Source: Actinomycetota bacterium (GTDB lineage: Bacteria > Actinomycetota > Actinomycetes > Mycobacteriales > Pseudonocardiaceae). Taken from it: a stretch of DNA of 38,797 nucleotides. This document shows, in pieces, positions 21,286 through 35,107 of the stretch. The stretch's first letter is position 1, and each line of letters begins with the position of its first letter. The translations under genes were made by a program, and so were the position numbers. The notes beneath the pieces were generated by a model that worked only from the letters and a program-made list of their open reading frames with translations, did not search any database and was not told the DNA's origin. The stretch spans positions 1 through 38,797 of the forward strand of contig JAJPIR010000099.1 of the NCBI GenBank assembly GCA_021324675.1, written 5' to 3'.

Positions 21286-22326
21286 CTAGGACGTGACTGG
21301 CTCGGGCCTTACCCATCGACGCTCAATGTCAGCCGTCCGAAGGGCATCGAAAACGGCCTGTACACGCAACCCCTCCTCCAGCGATGGCTCGGGCGCTGCC
21401 CCATTCCGGATCGCCGCCCAGAAGTTTCGGGCCACCCGCGTGAAGGCCTCGGTCGAGCTGCCGTCAAGCGGACCTTCACTGCGCAGCTCCTCACCGGTGC
21501 GCCCTGACCAGACCCGCTGGTCATCGTCGAGCTGTACGGTTCCCTCGTCTCCGTAGATCTCGATGACGTCGCCACGTCCGTGCCGGGCGGTAGCCACCAG
21601 GGTCACCACCCCGAGCCCCCCGCCGCGGAACCTCAGGAGCAGCGCGTAGGAGTCCTCGGCCGTTACCCGCCATAGCTCCCCGTCCTCGGTCCTACGGACG
21701 GGCACGCCGACCTCAGTGGCGGCGGCCACGGCCTCAACATCAGGGAAGATCTCCAGCAGGAGATCGAGGTCGTGCACCCCGTATCCCTGGAGCCGTCCAC
21801 CGCCGAGCCGGGCATCATGCACCCAGGTGTAGGGACGTGAGTCCGGGTCGGCATGATCCGAGGAGACGAGTGAAACTGATGCCATGCGGGGTCGTCCCAC
21901 GATTTCCCGTGCGCGTTCGATGACCCGCTGGCGGGTCTGCTGCATCCGTCGCCCGTAATTGACCACGCCGACCACCCCGGCCGTCCGGATGGCAGCCACG
22001 ATGTGGCGAGCATCCTCGAGGCTGTCGGCCAAAGGCTTCTCGCACATCACATGCAGTCCCCGCGCAGCCGCGGCGACGGCGAACTGGATGTGCGTCGTCA
22101 CGGGGGTGGCGATGTGCACAGCCTCGAGCCCCGGCACCGATAGCAGCTCATCGAAATCGGCGGTACCGAGACCTATGCCCGCCTTCTCAGCCAGCTCCCG
22201 GGCTCGCTGCGGCTGCCGCGACCACACGGCCACGGGTTCGAATTCCGCCAGCTTGGCGTAGACGGGCAGGGCCACCTTCCTCCCGTAGCCGCTGCCGACG
22301 ATAGCGATCTTGATCGGTTCGTCCAT
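21286..22326 (-). CDS. Gfo/Idh/MocA family NAD(P)-dependent oxidoreductase
   Basis: A 346-residue sugar or polyol dehydrogenase. The N-terminal Rossmann fold has the GxGxxG-like IAIVGSGYGRKVALPVYAKL, followed by VHIATPVTTHIQFAVAAAAR and the family-defining CEKPLADS, with the lysine that contacts cofactor and substrate. The C-terminal alpha/beta domain includes RLGGGRLQGYGVHDLDLLLE, with the usual Gly-x-x-Asp/His catalytic region, and EIYGDEGTVQLDDD. ATG 22326 has GGAGGGG just upstream. It is followed by the TIM-like gene with a 58-base gap, so the two are probably co-transcribed. The substrate is not determinable from the sequence. Confidence 0.92.
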   Translation of the reverse strand: MDEPIKIAIVGSGYGRKVALPVYAKLAEFEPVAVWSRQPQRARELAEKAGIGLGTADFDELLSVPGLEAVHIATPVTTHIQFAVAAAARGLHVMCEKPLADSLEDARHIVAAIRTAGVVGVVNYGRRMQQTRQRVIERAREIVGRPRMASVSLVSSDHADPDSRPYTWVHDARLGGGRLQGYGVHDLDLLLEIFPDVEAVAAATEVGVPVRRTEDGELWRVTAEDSYALLLRFRGGGLGVVTLVATARHGRGDVIEIYGDEGTVQLDDDQRVWSGRTGEELRSEGPLDGSSTEAFTRVARNFWAAIRNGAAPEPSLEEGLRVQAVFDALRTADIERRWVRPEPVTS

Positions 22327-24132: not shown

Positions 24133-27100
24133 TCAGCGCGGCGGCAAGGGTGGTGCTGAGGTAGGCGGACGGTCGTGAGTGGTCGGCGCGGTAGCCGCGG
24201 GCGCCTGAGCCAACGCAGCCAGCGCCAGTTCCACCGCGGTATCCAGTTGCGGATCCAGACCTTGGGCCCATGCCTGTGGCGGCACCGGCACCTCGACGTC
24301 GGGATCCACGCCGTGGTTTTCCACTGACCAGCCCCGGTTGGCGATCCAGATCGGGTAGCGAGGCTGGGTCACCGTGGAGCCGTCCGCCAGCTTGGTGCCA
24401 GGCTCGATGCCGATCACGCCGCCCCAGCTGCGCATTCCCACTACCGGCCCCAGACCGTGTTCCTGGATCATCGCGGTGACGATGTCGCCGTCGGAGCCCG
24501 CATTCTCGTCCGTGATGGTGATCAGCGGACCCCGACGGACGTCTCGGGGATAGGTGTAGGGCTGCTTGCCGCGGGGCACGACCCACCCGGTGAGTTTCCG
24601 GGCCAGCTTCTCCACGACCAGCTGCGAGGTGTGCCCGCCGCCGTTGCTGCGTACATCGAGCACCAACGCCTCGCGTGCGACCTCGACATGCAGGTCACGG
24701 TGTAGCTGCGCCCAGCCCAGCGCCATCATGTCCGGCACGTGCAGGTAACCCACCCGGCCGTCGGTGGCTCGATGCACTGCGGTGCGGCGATCGGCTACCC
24801 AGTCGTGGTAGCGCAGCGGCATCTCGTCGGCTACGGGAACCACGACGATGGTCCGCTCGTCCGCAGAGCTCACCACGCGTAGCCGCAGCTCGATGGGCTT
24901 GCCTGCGGTGCCTACCAGCAACGGCCACGGCCCGGTCACCGAGTCGACGGGCCGGCCGTCGACCGCAACCAGCGCTTCCCCGGGTCGCACTGCAGTTCCC
25001 GGCGCCCGCAATGGAGAACGGCCGGCTTTTGCGGAGCTCTCTCCGAGCAGCACCCGGGTAATCCGCCAGAACCCGTCGGAGTCCCGTTCCAGGTCGGCGC
25101 CAAGGTGTCCGAGCCGCCGCTCCTTCTGCTCGGGTTGCTCGGGCGGTGTCTCGTAGGCGTGTGAGGTGCCCAGCTCGGCTTGCACTTCCCAGAGCAGGTC
25201 GGACAGGTCGTCTCGGGTGGCGATCCGGTCCAGCAACGGCCGGTACCGGGCCAGCAGGGCAGCCCAGTCATTCCCGGCCATGTCAGCTACCCAAAAGTTG
25301 TCCCGCATCAGCCGCCCGGCTTCCTCGTACATCTGGCGCCATTCCAAGGCCGGCGTCACGGGTACGCGAACCCGGGACAGGTCCACATCGGTCACTGCCG
25401 ATGGGTCGCCGCGCTGAGCATCCTTGCTGGCCGGCTTCTCGCTGGGCAGCACCCGCAGCTTCTCCTTGTCACGGATCACCAGGCGAGTGCCGTCGCCGCT
25501 GACCCAGACCTCGTTGACACCCTCTTGCAACACCGTTGACACGCCGGTGGCCAGGTTCAGACGTTCCAACACGGGGCGCGGAGCCTCGTCGTCGGGAGTG
25601 GCGAGGTCGTCGCCGAGGACGCCGTGCAGGGGCTTGCGCAGCCATACCAGCCCACCCTTCACCGCGCGCAGTGACGAGTATCGCGCCGCTGGCACCGGCA
25701 CCGGCACAGCACGCTCGATCAGGCCGTTGAGGTCCACCGCGACGGCGACCCGCGCATTGCTGTCACCGTTGTCCGTGGCGGGATTGGGGAGGCGGCCCTG
25801 CACTGTGGGGGCGAACGGCGATGGCGTTGCGGCCGCCAGCACCAGCAGGTGCGGTCGGGTGCCAGCTACGAACGACAGGTCGAAGACCTGCGCGTCGTAC
25901 ACCGGGTCGAAGGTACGGGTGGACAGGAACGCCAGGTGACGGCCGTCCAAAGTGAAGGTCGGAGCGAAATCTGCGAAGCGCAGCGCGGTGGCATCCACCA
26001 CGGTGCTGTCCGCGAGCCGGGCCAACTTGATCTGACGCAGCGGGTACGGGCCGGGGTGGGTCCATGCCAGCCATCGCGAATCGGGCGAGAAGGCCAAGTC
26101 CCCCACGGCCCCGTTGTCGCTAATGGCTAGTTCGGTATCCGCGCCTCTGGCGGGATCGACCAGCAGCAGCCGACCGTCGTGCGTGGCCACCGCCAACCGG
26201 CTACCGTCCGGAGCGGCGGCAAGGTCGCGAACGCGTCCCAGCCTGCCAGCCGCCAGCGTGCGCACACCAGTGCCGTCCCGCGAGGACACAACCAGCCCGT
26301 CCTCGCCTAGGCCGTCGCTGACCCACGCCACGTCTTCGCCGAGCAGCCGGGCCAGCCGGGCACGCACCCCCGGCTGAGCTGCCAAGGTCCGCACGGGACC
26401 GTCTGCGTGTGTCACCCACTGCACGGTGCCCCGCACCTCGACTGCACTGGCCTGGCCGGCGCGATCGACGGCGACGTCACCCAGGTGCTTGCCGGCGGGT
26501 ACCGGGGACGCGATGCGCGCCGCGCGGGGTCCCCCGGTGCGCAGCTCCAGCCGGTGCGGCCGGGAGTCTGCAGCCAAGTCGTTGAGCAGCCATAGCTCCC
26601 CAGCCGCGGCGTAGACCACTCGCTCGCCGTCGGTGGTGGCATGCCGCGCGTAGTAGGTGTCGTGATCGGTGTGCCGCCGCAGATCTGAGCCGTCCGGAAG
26701 CACGGAATACACGTTGCCCACGCCTTCGTGGTCGGACAGGAACGCGACTCGACCGCCCACCCACATCGGAGCGGTGAGCTGGCCGTCCAATTCAGGCAGC
26801 AACCGGACGAACAGGCCCGCGCCGTCGGGATCGATCCACAGCCGACCTGCGGTGCCGCCCCGGTAGCGTTTCCACATCGCGGGATCGCGGCGCCGCCCGC
26901 CGAACCCAGTGCCGACAACCACGCCGCCTGCAGCCGCAACGTGCAGCGCAGTGACCGGACCGTACGGCAGCCGCTGTGCTGGCCCGCCGTCCAGCGGGAC
27001 GGTACGAGCCCAGGTGCGGTGGCGTAGCGGCTCCCGCACAGCTGAGGCCACGTGTACCTGGTGCGCATCAGCCCACCCGAGCAAGCGAATGTGCATGTCG

Positions 27101-27366
27101 CCCCACCACGTCGTGCGTAACGACGGTCCCCCGGCGGTGGCCACAACGTGTACCTCCGGCGCACCATCGCGCTGGCTCACGTAAGCCAAGTGCGCACCGT
27201 CAGGGGAGAAACGCAGGTCCTTGATCCAGGCGTGATCCGAGGTCAGCTGCCATGCTCGGCCACCGGTCACCGGGGCAAGCCAGACCTCGTCCTGAGCTAC
27301 GAAGGCGACCAGGTCGCCGTGCAAGGTGGGGTAGCGGAGATAGGAGTCGTTACCGGGGCTCAACAC
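24133..27366 (-). CDS. Tricorn-type protease (S41 family, beta-propeller plus PDZ)
   Basis: A 1077-residue cytosolic peptidase that trims oligopeptides released by larger proteases, as tricorn does downstream of the proteasome in Thermoplasma; actinomycetes carry close homologues. The first 650 or so residues are WD40/PD40-like propeller blades (LRFSPDGAHLAYVSQRDG, LAFSPDSRWLAWTHPGPY). A core and PDZ region follows (PLRAPGTAVRPGEALVAVDG), then the protease domain. The catalytic tetrad is in place: Ser735-His736 (ELGTSHAYE), Ser958 (ENAGSDGDIVTA) and Glu1016 (WSVENHGVDPDVEV). Length fits the family. The SSI-type inhibitor gene ends 37 bases upstream on the same strand, so the two may share a transcript. 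Confidence 0.95.
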   Translation of the reverse strand: MLSPGNDSYLRYPTLHGDLVAFVAQDEVWLAPVTGGRAWQLTSDHAWIKDLRFSPDGAHLAYVSQRDGAPEVHVVATAGGPSLRTTWWGDMHIRLLGWADAHQVHVASAVREPLRHRTWARTVPLDGGPAQRLPYGPVTALHVAAAGGVVVGTGFGGRRRDPAMWKRYRGGTAGRLWIDPDGAGLFVRLLPELDGQLTAPMWVGGRVAFLSDHEGVGNVYSVLPDGSDLRRHTDHDTYYARHATTDGERVVYAAAGELWLLNDLAADSRPHRLELRTGGPRAARIASPVPAGKHLGDVAVDRAGQASAVEVRGTVQWVTHADGPVRTLAAQPGVRARLARLLGEDVAWVSDGLGEDGLVVSSRDGTGVRTLAAGRLGRVRDLAAAPDGSRLAVATHDGRLLLVDPARGADTELAISDNGAVGDLAFSPDSRWLAWTHPGPYPLRQIKLARLADSTVVDATALRFADFAPTFTLDGRHLAFLSTRTFDPVYDAQVFDLSFVAGTRPHLLVLAAATPSPFAPTVQGRLPNPATDNGDSNARVAVAVDLNGLIERAVPVPVPAARYSSLRAVKGGLVWLRKPLHGVLGDDLATPDDEAPRPVLERLNLATGVSTVLQEGVNEVWVSGDGTRLVIRDKEKLRVLPSEKPASKDAQRGDPSAVTDVDLSRVRVPVTPALEWRQMYEEAGRLMRDNFWVADMAGNDWAALLARYRPLLDRIATRDDLSDLLWEVQAELGTSHAYETPPEQPEQKERRLGHLGADLERDSDGFWRITRVLLGESSAKAGRSPLRAPGTAVRPGEALVAVDGRPVDSVTGPWPLLVGTAGKPIELRLRVVSSADERTIVVVPVADEMPLRYHDWVADRRTAVHRATDGRVGYLHVPDMMALGWAQLHRDLHVEVAREALVLDVRSNGGGHTSQLVVEKLARKLTGWVVPRGKQPYTYPRDVRRGPLITITDENAGSDGDIVTAMIQEHGLGPVVGMRSWGGVIGIEPGTKLADGSTVTQPRYPIWIANRGWSVENHGVDPDVEVPVPPQAWAQGLDPQLDTAVELALAALAQAPAATAPTTHDRPPTSAPPLPPR

Positions 27367-28075: not shown

Positions 28076-29368
28076 GTGCCGGTACTGCGGCGCATGGTGC
28101 ACGAGGTTCGTTCGATGGAAATCGGTGCCGCTACCCGGTACGAGCAACACCAGCTCGTGGTGGGCCGGGAGCAAGCCCAGGCGCTGTTCGCTGATCCCGC
28201 TCTGGCCGCGGTACGGGTACACGTCGCCGCACCTGGAGACCCGACACGCATCATCGCCCCGCTCGACGTCGTGGAGCCGCGCAGCAAGGGGCCGGGCGGG
28301 GGAGTGTTTCCCGGTTGGATGGCGCCGGTGAATCGCCCGCGGGGCGGTGACACCCACGTGCTGCGTGGGGCCGCGGTGCTGGCCGCCGGGTACCTGCCCC
28401 GCAACCAGGAGGGCTTGATCGACATGTCCGGTCCGGCTGCCGAGCGTTCTCCGTTCGGCCGGACGAACAACGTCGTGATCGAGTTCGACCGCGCCGACGG
28501 GGCCTCCTGGCAGGAGGCTGAGGTTGCACTGCGCCGGGGGCTGCTGCGCCTGGCCGTGCATCTCGCCGACGCCGCCGTCGATGCCCCGCCCGATGTGGTC
28601 GAGGAGCTGGCGGCTCCACATCGTCCGGGGATGTCGACCGGTGGCCTGCCCCGCGTCGGCGCAATCACCAACCTGCAGACCCAAGGCGCGTTCAAGGACG
28701 TCTTCGTCTATGGGCGTAGCATGGCCGGCAGCCTGCCGACCTTGTTCGACCCAGTTGAAATCGAAGACGGGGCCGTGGTCAGCGGCCAGTACGGGCACCC
28801 AGCCCTGCGCAATCCCACTTACATCCACCAGAACAACCCAGTGGTTGCCGAGCTGCGCGCGCGCGATGGCCAGGATCTGTGCTTTGCCGGAGTGGTGCTG
28901 TGCCCGGAGCCGGTCGAGCAAGCTGACAAAGAACTCGTTTCCACGCATGCAGCTTGGCTGTGCCGGGCCGCCGGCTTCGATGCCGCCATCGTCACCAAGG
29001 AAGGTGCGGGCAACGCCGACAACGACCTGATGCTGAAGGTTGATGCGCTGGAGGCTGACGGCTTGACAGCGGTTGCGCTGTACGCCGAGTTGTCCGGTGC
29101 TGACGGCACCGGCCCACCGCTGGTGGCCGGCCCGCGTCGAGGTGCAGTGGTCAGTACCGGTAACTACGATCAGAGAGTGAAGCTGCCTGCGGTGGAGCGG
29201 GCGTTGGGAGGCACTCGTCTGAACATCGCTGACGCGGAGGCGACCGCGGCGGTTGATGTGCCGACCGCAGCGATTCTCGGTGCCTTGAGCCCGCTGGGCG
29301 CCGGGTGGCTCACCTGCCGTTCGGAGCAGCAGCAACTGGCCGGCCAGAAGTTGGGAGGCGCGGCCTGA
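28076..29368 (+). CDS. grdE: Glycine/sarcosine/betaine reductase component B, GrdE-type subunit (pyruvoyl Cys absent)
   Basis: A 430-residue homologue of GrdE, the proprotein subunit of the substrate-binding selenoprotein-B component, which in clostridia reduces glycine to a carboxymethyl-selenoether intermediate. Collinear conserved segments are VVEPRSKGPGGGVFPGWMAP, GGDTHVLRGAAVLAAGYLPR, NQEGLIDMSGPAAERSPFGR, TNLQTQGAFKDVFVYGRSM and ITKEGAGNADNDLMLK-like VTKEGAGNADNDLML. In clostridial GrdE the segment SGNCVSACDKNTTY is cleaved before its Cys to make the pyruvoyl group. Here the ungapped equivalent, residues 236-249, is SGQYGHPALRNPTY: both cysteines are replaced (Tyr239, Ala243), so this processing cannot occur. 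GTG 28076 follows GAGGGGAG by six bases and matches the family N-terminus; TTG 28010 is less likely. It overlaps grdB by one base. Confidence 0.9.
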   Translation: MPVLRRMVHEVRSMEIGAATRYEQHQLVVGREQAQALFADPALAAVRVHVAAPGDPTRIIAPLDVVEPRSKGPGGGVFPGWMAPVNRPRGGDTHVLRGAAVLAAGYLPRNQEGLIDMSGPAAERSPFGRTNNVVIEFDRADGASWQEAEVALRRGLLRLAVHLADAAVDAPPDVVEELAAPHRPGMSTGGLPRVGAITNLQTQGAFKDVFVYGRSMAGSLPTLFDPVEIEDGAVVSGQYGHPALRNPTYIHQNNPVVAELRARDGQDLCFAGVVLCPEPVEQADKELVSTHAAWLCRAAGFDAAIVTKEGAGNADNDLMLKVDALEADGLTAVALYAELSGADGTGPPLVAGPRRGAVVSTGNYDQRVKLPAVERALGGTRLNIADAEATAAVDVPTAAILGALSPLGAGWLTCRSEQQQLAGQKLGGAA

Positions 29369-30678
29369 TGCGCATCGTGCATTACGTCAATCAGTTTTAT
29401 GCGGGTCTCGGTGGCGAAGCGGAGGCTGGTATCGGCCCCCGCGCGCTCGAAGGAACGGTCGGCCCTGGGCGGTTGCTGTCCCAATTGCTGGGCGACGAAC
29501 ACGAAATCGTGGTCACGCTCGTGTGCGGCGACGACTACGCCGCTTCTAACACCGCCGTCGCTGAAGAACTGGTCGGGATGGCCCGTGAGGCCGGTGCCGA
29601 ACTGCTCGTTGCCGGGCCTGCTTTCGGTAGCGGGCGCTACGGGCTGGTATGTGCGCGGCTAGTTGCCGCCGCTGAGGCCGCTGGATTGCCGGCGCTGGCG
29701 TCGATGCACCCCGACAACCCCGGGATCTCTGACGCGGGTGGAGCACCCGTCGTGGCCGCGGGTGCCTCAAGCCGGCAGATGCGGCCGACATTGCAGACGG
29801 TTGCGGCCGCCATCGCGAAGCTGGCCACCGGCGCGAACCTGACGGTCGCCGACGGCCGAGTCGCCCGGGCTGCCCGGGTCGGCCAGCTGGTCGATCAGCG
29901 CGCCGCGGCACGGGCCGTTGAGCTCGTGCTGCGGCGCCTGGCCGGTGACCGGGAAAGCACCGAAGTTCCCGTCGGTGGGTTCGACGTGGTCACTCCGTCG
30001 GCCCCGGTCGATAAGCTGGCCAGCGCGACCGTCGCACTGGTCACCGAGGGCGCCTTGGTGCCAGCTGGCAACCCGGACCGGCTGGAATCTGCCCGCGCTA
30101 CCCGCTGGCTGCGTTATCCGATCGAGGGAATGGATTCGCTCGCTTCCGGGAAGTGGGAATCTGTGGATGGCGGCTTCGCGACGACCGCCGCCAATGCCGA
30201 TCCAAACCGGATCGTGCCCCTGGATACCGTCCGCAGGCTAGAACGGGACGGCGTGATCGGCCGGCTGCACAACGAATTGCTCGTCACGGTGGGCAACGGC
30301 ACGCAGGTGGCCTCCGCGCGGCGCTTCGGCGTCGAGTGGGCCGCGGAGCTGCGTAAGGCCGGGGTGCAAGCAGCGATCCTGACCGCTACTTGAGGCACCG
30401 GTACGCGTTGCGGGTCAGCGCTTGCCAAGGAGCTGGAGCGGGCTGGCATCCCCACAGCTGTGATCACCAATCTCGTGACGATCGCTGAGCAGGTTGGGGC
30501 ACCGCGGATCGTGCCCGGTCGGGGCATCCCCTACCCATCGGGTGATCCGAACGTGCCGCCGTCTGCCGAGCAGAGCTGGCGGCGGCGACTGGTGCAACGT
30601 GCACTGGACGCGGTCGCCACCGCGGTGGAACGTCCCACGATCTTCGAAGTAGGTGACGTGGAGGAGGCCCATGCCTGA
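29368..30678 (+). CDS. grdB: Glycine/sarcosine/betaine reductase component B, selenoprotein GrdB (in-frame UGA = Sec342)
   Basis: A 436-residue catalytic subunit of the substrate-binding component. The N-terminal part reads MRIVHYVNQFYAGLGGEAEA, GPGRLLSQLLGDEHEIVVTL and LLVAGPAFGSGRYGLVCARL, as in GrdB. The TGA at 30391-30393 (codon 342) falls at the known Sec position: ...QAAILTAT-Sec-GTGTRCGSALAKELERAG. Homology continues unbroken to TGA 30676-30678. Total length matches clostridial GrdB (about 436 residues). In clostridia the motif is Sec-GTCTRCG; here the Cys three residues after Sec is Gly, while the later Cys is kept. ATG 29368 overlaps the grdE stop, with GGGAGG upstream, and the 3' end overlaps grdC by 8 bases. 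A standard annotation would wrongly end the gene at 30393. Confidence 0.93.
30391..30426 (+). promoter_or_regulatory. SECIS-like element after the grdB UGA
   Basis: Directly after TGA 30391-30393, GCGTTG (30405-30410) pairs with CAGCGC (30416-30421) around the loop CGGGT (30411-30415). A lower stem is possible between GGCA (30394-30397) and TGCC (30423-30426). The loop lies about 18-22 bases after the UGA and has G in its second position, within the published range for bacterial SECIS elements (apical loop roughly 16-37 bases from UGA, early G in the loop). SelB would bind here to deliver Sec-tRNA. The fold was worked out by hand, not computed. Confidence 0.7.
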
Positions 30679-32098
30679 AGCCGCTGTGATCCGCGCAGCA
30701 AGCCTTGTGCTTGCCCACACCCCGGGTCTAGCCCGGCATGGGTCCAAGCCGATGCGATCTCTCCCTGGCAACGCCGAGCTGACCGCCCGGTTCCTGGCGA
30801 GCCTGCGAAGCTTTGACGACGCCGTCAACTACCCACCGCACCAGGCGTTCCTAGGCGCATGCCACCCTCGCGAGCTGCCGTCGCGTCCCTGGGTCGGAAC
30901 TGGCTTGCCAGGCGCGGACCGCTTCGCGCCGTTTGGCGAGCTGATGCCGGAGGAGGAGTTCCTCGGGCTGATGGCTGCCGTCGACGAGTTCGACTTGCTC
31001 AAGCTCACCCCGGAGGTCGCTGAGCGGTCCGCCAAACGCTTGGCTGAGCATCCGCTGGCACAGCACCTGGACCTGGCTCGGATCTCCGCGGCGGCTGGGG
31101 ATGTTGCCGCTGCCGTGGCCAGCGATGCACTGCCGGTGCACCTGGCGCCCGACTGCCTGGCTGGCGCGCTGCGCGGCGCGCATGCCGAGGATGAGTCGCT
31201 GACTGCCTACGTGTTGCTGGAGAATTTGGCCTGCAAGGCCACCGGCACGCTTGCGCTGCTGCATCTGCTGCACGACCACGACCTCGATCCCGCCGCGATC
31301 GGCTACACGATCTCCTGCTCCGAGGAGGCCGTTGGCGATCGTTACCAGCGCGGTGGGGGCAATATGGGCAAGACCATCGCGTCGGTCGCCGGTCTGGTCG
31401 AGTCATCTGGCGCGGATGTCAAAAACTTCTGCGCAGCACCCATCCCCGCGCTGGTGATCGCCGCCAGCCTCGTGGTGGCAGGGGTATTCGAGCAGGTGGT
31501 TGTCGTTGCCGGCGGCTCACTACCCAAACTCGGGATGAAGTTCGAGGGGCACCTGCGCCACGACCTCCCTGTGCTCGAAGATGTACTCGGCGGCGTTGCG
31601 GTGCTCGTGGGTGCCGACGATGGTGTCTCACCGCGGATCAGGCTCGACGCCGTGGGGCGCCACAAGGTGTCCTCGGGCGGTGCAGGTGCGCAGATCTTGC
31701 ACGATCTGGCAGTGCAGCCGCTTGAGGCGATTAACGCGCGCCTGATCGACATCGACGATTACGCCACCGAGTTGCACAACCCAGAGATCACCGAGCCGCA
31801 GGGTTCGGGAGACGTCGCGGCACGCAACTACCGCACGATCGCTGCGCTGGCGGCTCGCCGCAAGGAGATCACTCGAGACGAGATCGACTCGTTTGTCGCC
31901 GAGCGTGGCATGCCGGGTTACGCACCTACCCAGGGGCACATCGCGTCAGCGATCTGTTACCTGCCTCATGCGCTTCGGCGCCTCGAGGCCCGATCGGCTA
32001 ACAAGGTGTTGCTGCTGGCCAAGGGCAGCCTGTTCCTCGGGCGGATGAGCCAACGGTCCGACGGCATGAGCGTGCTGCTGGAACGTAACGGAGGCTGA
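30671..32098 (+). CDS. grdC: Glycine reductase complex component C, beta subunit GrdC
   Basis: A 475-residue homologue of GrdC, a thiolase/FabH-fold subunit of component C, which in clostridia takes the carboxymethyl group from GrdA selenocysteine and forms an acetyl thioester. Diagnostic segments are YTISCSEEAVGDRYQRGGGN, NFCAAPIPALVIAASLVVAG, VVVAGGSLPKLGMKFEGHLR, LEDVLGGVAVLVGADDGVSP and APTQGHIASAICYLPHALRR, ending LLAKGSLFLGRMSQRSDGMS. The catalytic-type Cys in 'CSEE' and 'FCAAP' are kept. ATG 30671 has GGAGGAGG upstream and overlaps the grdB end by 8 bases. The usual partner GrdD (PlsX-like, releases acetyl phosphate) is not in the window, so the fate of the acetyl group is open. Confidence 0.92.
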   Translation: MPEAAVIRAASLVLAHTPGLARHGSKPMRSLPGNAELTARFLASLRSFDDAVNYPPHQAFLGACHPRELPSRPWVGTGLPGADRFAPFGELMPEEEFLGLMAAVDEFDLLKLTPEVAERSAKRLAEHPLAQHLDLARISAAAGDVAAAVASDALPVHLAPDCLAGALRGAHAEDESLTAYVLLENLACKATGTLALLHLLHDHDLDPAAIGYTISCSEEAVGDRYQRGGGNMGKTIASVAGLVESSGADVKNFCAAPIPALVIAASLVVAGVFEQVVVVAGGSLPKLGMKFEGHLRHDLPVLEDVLGGVAVLVGADDGVSPRIRLDAVGRHKVSSGGAGAQILHDLAVQPLEAINARLIDIDDYATELHNPEITEPQGSGDVAARNYRTIAALAARRKEITRDEIDSFVAERGMPGYAPTQGHIASAICYLPHALRRLEARSANKVLLLAKGSLFLGRMSQRSDGMSVLLERNGG

Positions 32099-32101
32099 CA
32101 C

Positions 32102-32440
32102 ATGGCTGTAATGGATGCGACGAAAGAAAACTTCGACGAGCTCGTGGGATCGGGTTTGGTGCTCGTGGATGTATGGGCTGAAAGCTGTCGCCCCTGTGTG
32201 GCTCTGGCACCACATATGGAAAGTATTGCTAGTGACAACCCAGATCTGACCGTGATCAAGCTGGATGCCAGCAAGGCGCGGCGCCTGGTCATGTCGCTTC
32301 AGGTGCGCGGACTTCCGACCATCTTGCTGTTCTCCGATGGTCAGGAAGTGGACCGTATCTCCGATCCCAACCTCAACGCAGACCAGCTCGACGCGTGGCT
32401 GGCAAGTGCACTGGAGAAGCTACCCGCAAAGGAGGCGTGA
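32102..32440 (+). CDS. trxA: Thioredoxin of the glycine reductase operon
   Basis: A 112-residue thioredoxin with active site CRPC (Cys29, Cys32; in VLVDVWAESCRPC), the cis-proline loop in QVRGLPTILLFSDGQEVDRI, and ordinary thioredoxin length. The central Arg replaces the usual Gly, a variation also common in operon-specific thioredoxins. In clostridial grd operons a dedicated thioredoxin and thioredoxin reductase re-reduce the selenenylsulphide of GrdA after each turnover; the same job is inferred here from its place between grdC and grdA. A trxB reductase gene is not present nearby. GGAGG precedes the ATG, which lies three bases after the grdC stop. Confidence 0.93.
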   Translation: MAVMDATKENFDELVGSGLVLVDVWAESCRPCVALAPHMESIASDNPDLTVIKLDASKARRLVMSLQVRGLPTILLFSDGQEVDRISDPNLNADQLDAWLASALEKLPAKEA

Positions 32441-32902
32441 ATGTTCGACGGCAAGCAGGTCATCGCGATCGGAGAGCGCGACGGAGTCTCAGGAACGGCG
32501 ATTGCGGCTTGTGCCAAGGCGGCGGGTGCCCCGGTCGCCTATGTCGCCACCGAATGCTTTGTTTGAACGGCCGCTGGCGCCATGGACCTGTCCACCCAGG
32601 AGACGATCAAGCGCCTGGCCGACGAGCACGGTGCGGATTCGCTGATCGTGCTGCTTGGCGCACCGGACGCGGAAAGCGCCGGGATCGCCGCCGAAACGGT
32701 GGTGCTCGGTGATCCGAGTTGGGCAGGACCGCTGGCCGGGGTCCAGTTGGGCCTCCGCGTGTACCACATTCTCGAAGAGGAGGCGCGCGCTGCGGTGCCT
32801 TCCGAAGTATGGGAAGAACAGGTTGGGTTGATGGCCGATGTCCTCGAGGTGGATGCCATAGCCGAGGCCGTCCGAGAATTTCGCGAGCAGGTCCCCCAAT
32901 AG
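32441..32902 (+). CDS. grdA: Glycine reductase selenoprotein A, GrdA (in-frame UGA = Sec42)
   Basis: A 153-residue small acidic carrier selenoprotein. It receives the carboxymethyl group from component B on its selenocysteine and passes it to component [19 protein letters not shown] opens the protein. The redox motif is YVATECFV[11 protein letters not shown], where Cys39 and the TGA at 32564-32566 (codon 42) form the canonical CxxSec exactly as in clostridial GrdA. The sequence then continues [40 protein letters not shown] and [20 protein letters not shown], all family-like, to the stop at 32900-32902. ATG 32441 follows GGAGG and the trxA stop directly. Without Sec decoding only a 41-residue stub would be made. 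Confidence 0.94.
32564..32599 (+). promoter_or_regulatory. Candidate SECIS-like stem-loop after the grdA UGA (weak)
   Basis: After TGA 32564-32566, TGGA (32583-32586) pairs with TCCA (32591-32594) around the loop CCTG, and an outer CTGG (32574-32577) pairs with CCAG (32596-32599), with an asymmetric internal loop. The loop is 20-23 bases after UGA, the right distance, but the stem is short and the loop lacks an early G. It is weaker than the grdB element. Glycine reductase SECIS elements are known to vary, so it is listed as a candidate only. Confidence 0.4.
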
Positions 32903-33030: not shown

Positions 33031-34053
33031 CTAGCTCGGTGCGTCAGGCAAAGGATTGCGCAGCGTGGGTTGATCGGCGGCCCATTTTTCAAGCAAGAGG
33101 TCGGAAAAGCGATCGGCGAGCAGGTTGGCGGCCTGGATACCGAACACCACGTCGGCGGCGAGCTCGGGCTCGCTGGCAAGCAGCGGGGTGATTACGCCGT
33201 GGCGGATGAGTTGCTCGTGCGCGGCGTCGGCTTCGACATGTTCGGCGTAGAACTCGATCGCCGCGGGTCCGCAACCCAGCCGGCGCATGGCACGGACGAG
33301 CCGGTCGGATCCGGGTGAGGAGGTCAGCTCCACGGTGGCGAACTGGCCGATGAGCGCACCGCGCAGCTTGCGGTGCAGGCCGCACATCGACATGAAGTTG
33401 ATCTCGGCCAGGGTGGTGGCCGGCGCAGCATCGAGGTACGCCCCGTACTGCGCGCAGAGCCCGAGCTCGGTCATCATGTCGGCGAACAGCCGAGCGTGCA
33501 TACGCCGCGGGTTACCCGCGCCGTATTCGTCGTGCTCAACTGTCACCAGCGCGGCCTTGGCGGGCCCGCTGAGCCGGGGGATCACCCATGCTTGCGGATC
33601 GGCCTCTTTCAGGTGGTAGAGCGAGCGGTGCGTGACGTACTCGCGCAGCTGCCACAGCGTCCCGCGCCGGCGCAGATGGTGCGAGACACCGCCGGCGTCT
33701 GGCGCCTCCACCAGCAATGCATCGATCTCGGCGGGAACATCGGCCCCGCCGGGCACATCGGCCCGTAACGCAGCTAAAAAAGCCTGCTCGAGCTGCCAGC
33801 GCAGCCGGAGCAGTTGCGGGTCCCATTCCAACTCGGCGCACACTCCGGTGAAACCGCGGTAATGCAGTTCGTAGCAGCAGTACAGCGCCAGCTGGAGGTC
33901 GTCCCCGTACGGGTCAGCCTGCGCTACGGTCGCCGCGTCGATCTGCCCGCAAGGCACACCCCGCAACCTGTCGAATGCGGCGGCGGACAGCACACCCCGC
34001 GGAGCTGGAAGGTCCGGCGCCGCCACAGCCGAAACCACGGTGTTGCTCGTCAC
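33031..34053 (-). CDS. Iron-containing redox enzyme family protein (haem-oxygenase-like fold)
   Basis: A 340-residue protein of the helical HO-like diiron family, members of which oxidise or cleave small substrates. The first metal region is CYELHYRGFTGVCAELEWDP (Glu/His). The middle has REYVTHRSLYHLKEADPQAW and EHDEYGAGNPRRMHARLFAD, with further Glu/His ligands. The C-terminal block is AIEFYAEHVEADAAHEQLIR (Glu...His...Asp...His). The ligand pattern is intact. ATG 34053 lies three bases after the CDGSH gene stop, so the two are almost certainly co-transcribed. An Fe-S donor next to an iron oxidase suggests one redox unit, but the substrate is unknown. Confidence 0.87.
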   Translation of the reverse strand: MTSNTVVSAVAAPDLPAPRGVLSAAAFDRLRGVPCGQIDAATVAQADPYGDDLQLALYCCYELHYRGFTGVCAELEWDPQLLRLRWQLEQAFLAALRADVPGGADVPAEIDALLVEAPDAGGVSHHLRRRGTLWQLREYVTHRSLYHLKEADPQAWVIPRLSGPAKAALVTVEHDEYGAGNPRRMHARLFADMMTELGLCAQYGAYLDAAPATTLAEINFMSMCGLHRKLRGALIGQFATVELTSSPGSDRLVRAMRRLGCGPAAIEFYAEHVEADAAHEQLIRHGVITPLLASEPELAADVVFGIQAANLLADRFSDLLLEKWAADQPTLRNPLPDAPS

Positions 34054-34056
34054 TGA

Positions 34057-34290
34057 TCACACATCCCGGGGTGGCTCGCTGCCGCGGCTGCGATCGGTGC
34101 GCACCCGCCGCCGGTGGCTGGTGTCACAGAACGGGTACCGGCGGCTGCGGCGGCACGTGCACAGCGCAGTGGCTGCCCGGTCAGATATCACCTCCCGCCC
34201 ATCGGCAAGCACGATCTCGACCGGGCCCTGCACGAGGACCGGCCCGTCATCGGTCATGGTGATCCGGCGTCGGGCGGGCTCAGGGGACAC
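34057..34290 (-). CDS. CDGSH iron-sulfur domain protein
   Basis: A 77-residue mitoNEET-like protein binding one 2Fe-2S cluster through three Cys and one His: Cys44, Cys46, Cys55 and His59 in LCTCRRSRRYPFCDTSHRR, which fits CxC-x2-S-x3-P-x-C-D-x-S-H. The N-terminal strand DGPVLVQGPVEIVLADGREV is typical. GTG 34290 is preferred because GGAGG lies a few bases upstream and it matches the family N-terminus; ATG 34311 or 34329 would add residues without similarity. It overlaps the end of the methyltransferase gene by 11 bases and is followed after three bases by the iron redox enzyme gene: a three-gene operon. Confidence 0.92.
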   Translation of the reverse strand: MSPEPARRRITMTDDGPVLVQGPVEIVLADGREVISDRAATALCTCRRSRRYPFCDTSHRRRVRTDRSRGSEPPRDV

Positions 34291-35107
34291 CTCGACCTCC
34301 AGCAGATGCATGGGCTGCGATGACGACAAGCTCTTCGTTGCGTTGGCCGGGTTGGATGAGCCCGCGGGCTTCCAGCATGGCTGCCCGTAGCCGCATGACC
34401 GGTCCGAAGGGGACGGTGCAGCGGGTCAGCACCTTCGCGTGCAGCCCAGCGTCAGTGAGGCGGCGCAGCGTGACGCTGTCGTCGCACACTGCTGAGTGGA
34501 CGATCAGCATCATCCCTTCCGGGCTGAGCAACTCGGGCGCTCCGGTACACAGCCGATCCAGCACAGCGCGCCCGTCGGTGCCGCCATCCCAGCACCGGTT
34601 GATCCGGTGCCGGCTTAGCCCGTTGGTGGCGGCAGGCACGTAAGGCGGGTTGGCCACGATGAGGTCGAAGTGCTGTCCTGCGACCGGTTCGAACAAGTCA
34701 CCGCGGTACACGGTGCACCGAGCGCGGTGGATCCGGCAATTGAGCCAGGTGGCCAGGATCGATCGCAGCGAAAGATCGACCGCGGTGACCGAGGCGGCTC
34801 CGGCCCTGGCAGCGGCAAGCGCCAGGGCGCCAGTGCCGGTGCCGATATCGAGCACGCGGCGTCCAACCGGGTAACGGCCAGCGCACATGACCTCTATCAA
34901 CAAGGAGGTGTCGCTATCGGCTCGATAGACGCCGGGGGGCCGCAGAAGTAGCACGCTGTGCGAGGTACCCGCAGCGTGCCAGGAGAAAACCCCAGCTCGG
35001 TGGGCCTCATTGGGGACCGGGATGGAAACGTCCAGGCGGAGAGAACCGCTGGCGGACGTTACCGGATTGCAGCCAGCTACGATCTCGCCTCGCTTGGCGG
35101 CCCTCAT
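34280..35107 (-). CDS. SAM-dependent methyltransferase (HemK/PrmC-like class I)
   Basis: A class I methyltransferase. The SAM-binding motif I is RRVLDIGTGTGALALAAARA, with SVTAVDLSLRSI following. The N6-/glutamine-methyltransferase motif is DLIVANPPYVP, as in PrmC and other NPPY enzymes. A likely core start is near SVLLLRPPGVYRADSDTSLL (GTG about 34954), since homologues usually begin there. The open frame extends to ATG 35107, and the extra 51 residues could be spurious; both are possible. It leads the operon with the CDGSH and iron redox genes. The substrate is unknown; modification of a small-molecule or protein Gln/Asn is inference from NPPY. Confidence 0.85.
   Translation of the reverse strand: MRAAKRGEIVAGCNPVTSASGSLRLDVSIPVPNEAHRAGVFSWHAAGTSHSVLLLRPPGVYRADSDTSLLIEVMCAGRYPVGRRVLDIGTGTGALALAAARAGAASVTAVDLSLRSILATWLNCRIHRARCTVYRGDLFEPVAGQHFDLIVANPPYVPAATNGLSRHRINRCWDGGTDGRAVLDRLCTGAPELLSPEGMMLIVHSAVCDDSVTLRRLTDAGLHAKVLTRCTVPFGPVMRLRAAMLEARGLIQPGQRNEELVVIAAHASAGGRGVP

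Follow-up and report, generated by a model that had tools for sequence, protein, structure and literature searches.

The 38,797-nucleotide contig JAJPIR010000099.1 of an actinomycete of the family Pseudonocardiaceae (assembly GCA_021324675.1), analysed as a whole contig and referred to hereafter as the window, carries at positions 28076-32902 five genes in the order grdE-grdB-grdC-trx-grdA. Sequence comparison confirmed that these form a real, selected, selenocysteine (Sec)-dependent operon of the Grd superfamily in an actinomycete. 'Glycine-reductase-type', the term given to it in an original prediction made from the DNA alone, is correct as a family name but not as a function: by the sequence features tested, the operon is a member of the superfamily and is not a glycine reductase. 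The five genes, the Sec codons with the machinery that reads them, the loss of the processing cysteine of GrdE and the lack of a recognisable GrdD are all conserved in a distinct clade. The reading that we favour, with a probability of about 0.55, is that of a selenoenzyme fed by thioredoxin, needing neither pyruvoyl group nor GrdD, that would displace a non-amine group directly and release the acyl group from GrdC. The features of the operon are as follows.

28076..29368, + strand: grdE-like gene, protein B alpha subunit; GTG start, 430 amino acids, Pfam Gly_reductase 323.6 bits
29368..30678, + strand: grdB-like gene, selenoprotein B; 436 amino acids, motif TATUGTGTRCG, Pfam GRDB 357.2 bits
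30391..30393, + strand: codon TGA of GrdB Sec342, in frame inside grdB
30403..30414, + strand: probable core of a selenocysteine insertion sequence (SECIS) in grdB, frozen codons ACG-CGT-TGC-GGG, from codon conservation
30671..32098, + strand: grdC, component C beta subunit; 475 amino acids, thiolase/KAS III-like fold, Cys254 kept
32102..32440, + strand: trx, thioredoxin; CRPC motif
32441..32902, + strand: grdA, selenoprotein A; 153 amino acids, Pfam GRDA 207.2 bits
32564..32566, + strand: codon TGA of GrdA Sec42, in frame, motif ECFVU

The five genes overlap or nearly touch, as had been predicted. Successive spacings are -1, -8, +3 and 0 bases, grdE and grdB sharing 1 base and grdB and grdC sharing 8, and the Shine-Dalgarno sequence claimed for each gene was found as a Shine-Dalgarno-like stretch, judged by eye, 5' of all five starts. 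GrdC scored 551.2 bits with NCBIfam model NF040746 (component C beta, cut-off 450), GrdA 211.3 bits with NF040748 (selenoprotein A, cut-off 130) and GrdB 410.4 bits with the general model TIGR01918 (cut-off 65.45), the GrdF model being level with the latter. In the NCBIfam profile search GrdE exceeded no cut-off, its match to Pfam Gly_reductase being strong; the best NCBIfam match was to GrdG (229.3 bits, cut-off 780). A PDB sequence search with GrdE and GrdB returned no match. The ratio of non-synonymous to synonymous substitution rates, taken against four relatives (a second copy on contig C148 of the same genome, and loci L036, L038 and L041), was 0.065-0.199 for the five genes. Such low values give no sign of decay, and the earlier remark that the operon looks selected holds.

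The Sec machinery on which the prediction depends was found in full. In the window's genome (G000), tRNA-Sec lies at G000:C206:305-396 (75 bits), selA (414.2 bits, cut-off 267.9) and selB (265.1 bits, cut-off 242.25) lie on the same contig, and selD lies at G000:C8:35918-36838; all four are over their cut-offs. Among 54 rows, comprising 52 named loci, the window and the C148 copy, a stop codon stood at the grdB Sec site in all 48 readable rows and at the grdA Sec site (CFVU) in all 43, with no Cys form seen at either. Reading of the codon itself was restricted to rows that have a stop at the motif, and it was TGA in 47/47 grdB and 42/42 grdA genes so read.

Behind the grdB TGA, synonymous codons are nearly frozen: ACG in 46 of 47 genes, CGT in 47, TGC in 47 and GGG in 45. 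Outside this stretch, these genes use CGT for 6% of their Arg residues and GGG for 22% of their Gly residues, TGC being the choice in 90% of cases anyway. No column among 31 six-fold ones was purer than that of CGT, and among 76 four-fold columns at conserved residues ACG and GGG took the top two places. This is the pattern that a SECIS element within coding sequence would leave, and such an element is probably present inside grdB, with its core at 30403..30414. The codon-usage test was run for grdB. It replaced an attempt to infer the element from folding energy, dropped when the energies behind the Sec codons of grdB and grdA proved no better than those of shuffled sequences (z -0.26 and 0.04).

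In the relatives, sel genes lay within the fetched flanks of 8/52 named loci; those confirmed by profile were SelA and SelB of L036 and SelA, SelB and SelD of L059, and tRNA-Sec was also present in five of the eight (15 loci scanned). We searched 20 genomes with GrdE-like genes, 15 of the clade and five (G399, G428, G515, G591 and G617) with other GrdE variants; two of the clade genomes are less than 90% complete (G082, 87%; G543, 81%). SelD was found in 20/20. SelB was not used as a presence/absence marker, being unspecific (396/396 genomes at E 0.001, 214 over the cut-off). Service of the Sec machinery to the grd operon alone is ruled out here by a formate dehydrogenase frame on G000:C141 (L099:3249-4541, minus strand) with an in-frame TGA in the context RI-U-HSSTV. 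This partial frame, which scored 794.9 bits over 431 residues for the actinobacterial formate dehydrogenase model against a cut-off of 1400 for the whole protein, is probably a selenocysteine formate dehydrogenase.

The residues that set the clade apart were identified against five references, all taken from plasmid records: the sarcosine grdGF of Peptoclostridium acidaminophilum (twice), the betaine grdH operon of Enterococcus gilvus, and the operons of Acetoanaerobium noterae and Photobacterium, whose records have no gene annotation and whose 'glycine-type' label was assigned in this analysis. For GrdE, 51 of the 54 rows were compared, L087, L083 and L085 being left out for distance or coverage. 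The Cys of SGNC, residue 242 of A. noterae GrdE (L090), which we take to be the processed cysteine of the literature, aligned with window position 239. The clade has Y, F or L at this site in 51/51 sequences, preceded by Gln in place of Asn in 50 and followed by GHP in all 51. The pyruvoyl-forming Asn-Cys pair, present in 4/4 glycine/sarcosine-type references, was found in 0/51; the betaine-type sequence of E. gilvus has SF. In the window, SGQYGHPALRN occupies the place of SGNC(V/A)..C in these four references, and the second conserved Cys (243) is lost in 51/51 clade sequences as well. Two further changes are fixed in all 51: Glu308, present in all five references including the betaine type, is Lys, and Gly109 is Arg. 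Lys321, which is Lys in 49/51, was tried as a replacement for the pyruvoyl, since a second Asn-Cys occupies that place in canonical enzymes, and was dropped because Cys242 aligns at 239. The predicted model of GrdE had a mean confidence (pLDDT) of 80.8 and was poorly defined at 240-244.

GrdB is altered around its Sec residue. The Ser of its STUG motif has been named as a candidate for the unidentified carbonyl in a published passage that gives no residue positions; it is Ala in 42/48 clade sequences, the window's included. The UxxC of the references is UxxG in 47/47 readable clade sequences, the second Cys of UxxCxxC being kept, and Ser243 is replaced by Arg (48/48), Ser227 by Glu (48/48) and Ala136 by Arg (47/48). 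GrdC keeps Cys254 and has lost the reference His259 in 46/46 sequences, with Pro in 44 of them, among these the window. Its predicted model (pLDDT 91.1) has thiolases and KAS III as nearest PDB structures (E about 1e-10), at template-modelling (TM) scores of only about 0.35-0.40 on the query.

Besides the processing cysteine of GrdE, a recognisable GrdD is lacking. GrdD, for which a search had been proposed, was over the cut-off in 0/20 genomes (0/15 of the clade), and the window's genome gave no match at all; weak matches to the profile occurred in six of the 20, four of them of the clade. A tblastn search of the fetched loci found GrdD only in three reference plasmids. Acetate kinase was present in 5/20 genomes, all five of the clade and the window's among them, and was not found in 10/15 clade genomes. 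With Asn-Cys and GrdD both missing and acetate kinase in a minority of clade genomes, the earlier identification with Stickland glycine/sarcosine reductase is not upheld; its guess that the system may reduce another substrate fits. COX1 was found in 20/20 genomes and 15/15 of the clade, as a fragment only in G428, and the hosts are probably aerobic or facultative.

The operon is no isolated oddity. One scan of 84,980 species in a genome collection was made from the GrdE alignment; it used two exact clade peptide patterns, so that it says little on more distant forms, and gave 52 named loci with relatives, all from records titled as metagenome-assembled genomes (MAGs). Forty-nine are titled Actinomycetota or a group within it (Pseudonocardiales, Solirubrobacterales/Thermoleophilia, Acidimicrobiia and others), and the other three Dormiibacterota, Methylomirabilota and Desulfobacterales. 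All five genes stand in the window's order in 30/52; the rest have no nearby trx or grdA, or are cut by a contig end. PF09338 occurred in 5/298 genomes of the order and in 16/396 of a phylum sample, the window's own genome being counted in both, and 11 of these 16 belong to the clade by identity to the window. A midpoint-rooted GrdB tree was built from the window, 26 clade rows, the five references and five other actinobacterial rows, and held no FarE/FarB sequence. It placed the clade apart from the glycine, sarcosine and betaine types, with support of 100/99 for 26 rows and 97/91 once the Methylomirabilota row was included; the program warned of odd reference composition and of long branches for the betaine-type reference and L035. 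Pseudonocardiales rows cluster together. L066, of the Mycobacteriales, is paired with a row from the Acidimicrobiaceae, and the Dormiibacterota row falls inside the clade, which suggests some transfer.

We propose that the enzyme has dropped both ends of textbook glycine reductase, the amine-activating pyruvoyl group and the GrdD that makes acetyl phosphate. With no Schiff base formed, Sec342 of GrdB would directly attack a substrate that bears a carboxylate, at its alpha carbon, expelling a leaving group that would be neither a primary nor a secondary amine. The fixed Lys308 and Arg109 of GrdE and Arg136 and Arg243 of GrdB suggest that this group is neutral or anionic. The carboxymethyl group would then move to Sec42 of GrdA, with electrons supplied by the thioredoxin of the operon, and the acetyl (acyl) group would end as a thioester on Cys254 of GrdC, to leave to coenzyme A (CoA) or water rather than to phosphate; given the likeness of the GrdC model to thiolases and KAS III, transfer to CoA would be chemically natural. 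Because the hosts are likely aerobes or facultative organisms, the system would serve them to use or detoxify a small substituted acid rather than to ferment. More tentatively, in oxidase-bearing uncultured actinobacteria the selenolate of this pyruvoyl-free and GrdD-free complex may break, by direct attack, a carbon-heteroatom bond beside a carboxylate, and GrdC may pass the acyl group on to CoA; this would add a third chemistry to the reduction of amines (through a Schiff base) and of quaternary amines.

Several observations weigh against this proposal. GrdA shows only four fixed differences from four references and would equally suit a glycine-like substrate, and no PDB structure matched the fold of the GrdE model at E 0.001. 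The basis of the charge argument is an alignment, and the fixed Glu227 of GrdB (48/48) opposes it. A very diverged GrdD would escape the profile search, and the GrdD profile matched the clade genomes G035, G082, G433 and G526 weakly, at 19-33 bits (cut-off 350). The window's genome does have acetate kinase, with two matches in the search that had been called for, and COX1 is the one basis for taking the hosts as aerobic. Beside the operon, no gene for a substrate pathway, transporter or regulator could be recognised in repeated occurrence, in a survey that used a home-made caller of open reading frames (ORFs) on loci of which many are cut short and most flank genes not profile-searched.

Other explanations were weighed as well. 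The enzyme might dehalogenate haloacetates in the manner of the fluoroacetate reductase FarEB of Synergistota, Sec displacing the halide and the hosts detoxifying or using the haloacetate. A passage of PMC10838667 describes FarE as lacking the processing cysteines and FarB as changed in the Cys motif beside Sec, both features of the clade, and FarE is second-best of the three NCBIfam matches of GrdE (123.9 bits); the cationic fixed residues would also suit an anionic leaving group. Yet GrdE is far under the FarE cut-off of 675 and matches GrdG better, the five-gene operon has its own grdA, grdC and trx and contains no antiporter or radical-SAM gene such as farACEB has, and the clade retains the second Cys of GrdB whereas FarB, in that passage, has no CxxC residues; we consider dehalogenation unlikely. 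Reduction of glycine betaine to trimethylamine and an acetyl thioester is unlikely. It would need no pyruvoyl group, since betaine cannot form a Schiff base, and the alpha subunit of betaine reductase protein B (GrdHI) has no processing Asn-Cys either (SGSF in the reference). However, GrdB branches apart from the sole betaine-type sequence, itself a long branch, the curated GrdH profile gives 367.6 bits against a cut-off of 775, the Glu308 shared by all five references is Lys throughout the clade, and no betaine transporter of the BCCT family was recognised beside the operon, whereas E. gilvus has one. To a protective system, in which selenols scavenge electrophiles such as alkylating alpha-carbonyl compounds, thioredoxin regenerates them and acetyl release is incidental, we give the same low credence as to betaine reduction: thioredoxin stands in order in 30/52 named operons and trxB beside two, GrdD was not found and ackA is confined to 5/15 clade genomes, but the strong constraint on a whole protein C points to a role for the acyl product.

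It is improbable that the operon encodes a true reductase of glycine or sarcosine, with an unrecognised carbonyl and a diverged GrdD. The top NCBIfam matches are indeed to sarcosine subunits, GrdG for GrdE and, level with TIGR01918, GrdF for GrdB, and the clade shares with the clostridial enzymes (GrdABCDE; GrdFG) proteins A, B and C-beta, Sec in A and B, thioredoxin and a compact operon. It differs from them in having no Asn-Cys, mostly no STUG Ser, UxxG for UxxC and a replaced His259 in GrdC, in the failure to find GrdD, over cut-off in none of the 15 clade genomes, and in hosts with a haem-copper oxidase; both proposed sources of the carbonyl, Cys242 and the STUG Ser, are lost in the window. 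Contamination by, or a decayed import from, an anaerobe is largely refuted and has next to no probability, even though all 52 named loci come from MAGs and the window's bin contains a second complete operon on G000:C148 (L018:2592-7455, 88.1% nucleotide identity over 4.9 kb) and a duplicated ackA region (86.9%). Most of 19.8-38.8 kb of the window, flanks included, is collinear at 83-89% nucleotide identity with L038, from another Pseudonocardiales MAG, with two weaker pieces at 78-81% before 19.8 kb; substitution ratios are low and relatives occur in many actinobacterial bins. As the ackA region is duplicated at a similar identity, the C148 copy probably belongs to a sister species placed in the same bin and is less likely to be a paralogue. 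L036 and L040 align with the window over the operon only, placing it at different sites in related genomes.

If the favoured reading of a pyruvoyl-free and GrdD-free selenoenzyme is true, the core of the two Sec proteins A and B with GrdC is a general device for reductive C-X cleavage, present in this clade without the substrate-activating and energy-conserving parts. Selenoenzymes of the glycine-reductase type have mainly been taken to indicate anaerobic fermentation of amino acids, and annotating the genes of this clade as glycine or sarcosine reductase may give such MAGs a wrong metabolism. D-proline reductase, a distant homologue (PrdA and PrdB, 34.0 and 76.6 bits), is not known to use a protein A or C. 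A passage of PMC10298544 describes D-proline reduction as free of an acyl intermediate. No paper on this clade was found in a literature search whose coverage omitted most subscription journals. Symbiobacterium was later moved to the Firmicutes. Under Actinobacteria, a passage of PMC1794560 lists GrdA and GrdB for that genus. A passage of PMC9751293 describes a GrdB survey over GTDB filtered on a glycine-reductase motif. Of groundwater MAGs with the reductive glycine (rGly) pathway, about 8% have glycine reductase according to a passage of PMC13014828, which does not name the phyla.

More distant forms were noted as well. In L033 and L034 (G515 and G399) a more distant GrdE/GrdB pair from actinobacteria lacks the processing cysteine and has TGTUGTGTRCG, the GrdE being only 33-35% identical to that of the window. 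In another GrdE/GrdB variant (L020 and L021; G617 and G591) the first Cys is lost and the second kept (YVYAC/YVYGC), as is Sec. The GrdE of L087 (CP070694.1, Desulfobacterales) is distant and has SGNYVIP; its gene is convergent with a grdA having a stop at the Sec site.

Flank clusters present in at least four loci, identified through one member each by Pfam with operon genes and antisense ORFs set aside, comprised selA/selB/selD, an ABC ATPase (10 loci), an AMP-binding ligase, single-stranded DNA-binding protein (SSB), Gfo/Idh/MocA, a histidine kinase and a sigma factor. No cluster keeps a constant place beside the operon; in L042, and in no other locus, an AMP-binding ligase is found 156 bases upstream of grdE. 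A gene for the thioredoxin reductase TrxB follows grdA by 28 bases in L044, where it is over the cut-off, and by 91 bases in L045. Neighbours of the operon in the window, by Pfam, are a tricorn-type protease (24133-27366), a member of an iron-containing redox enzyme family (33031-34053) and a CDGSH iron-sulfur protein (34057-34329). A Gfo/Idh/MocA-family oxidoreductase lies near both operon copies (window 21286-22326; L018:1118-2161), the two genes being 79% identical in nucleotide sequence.

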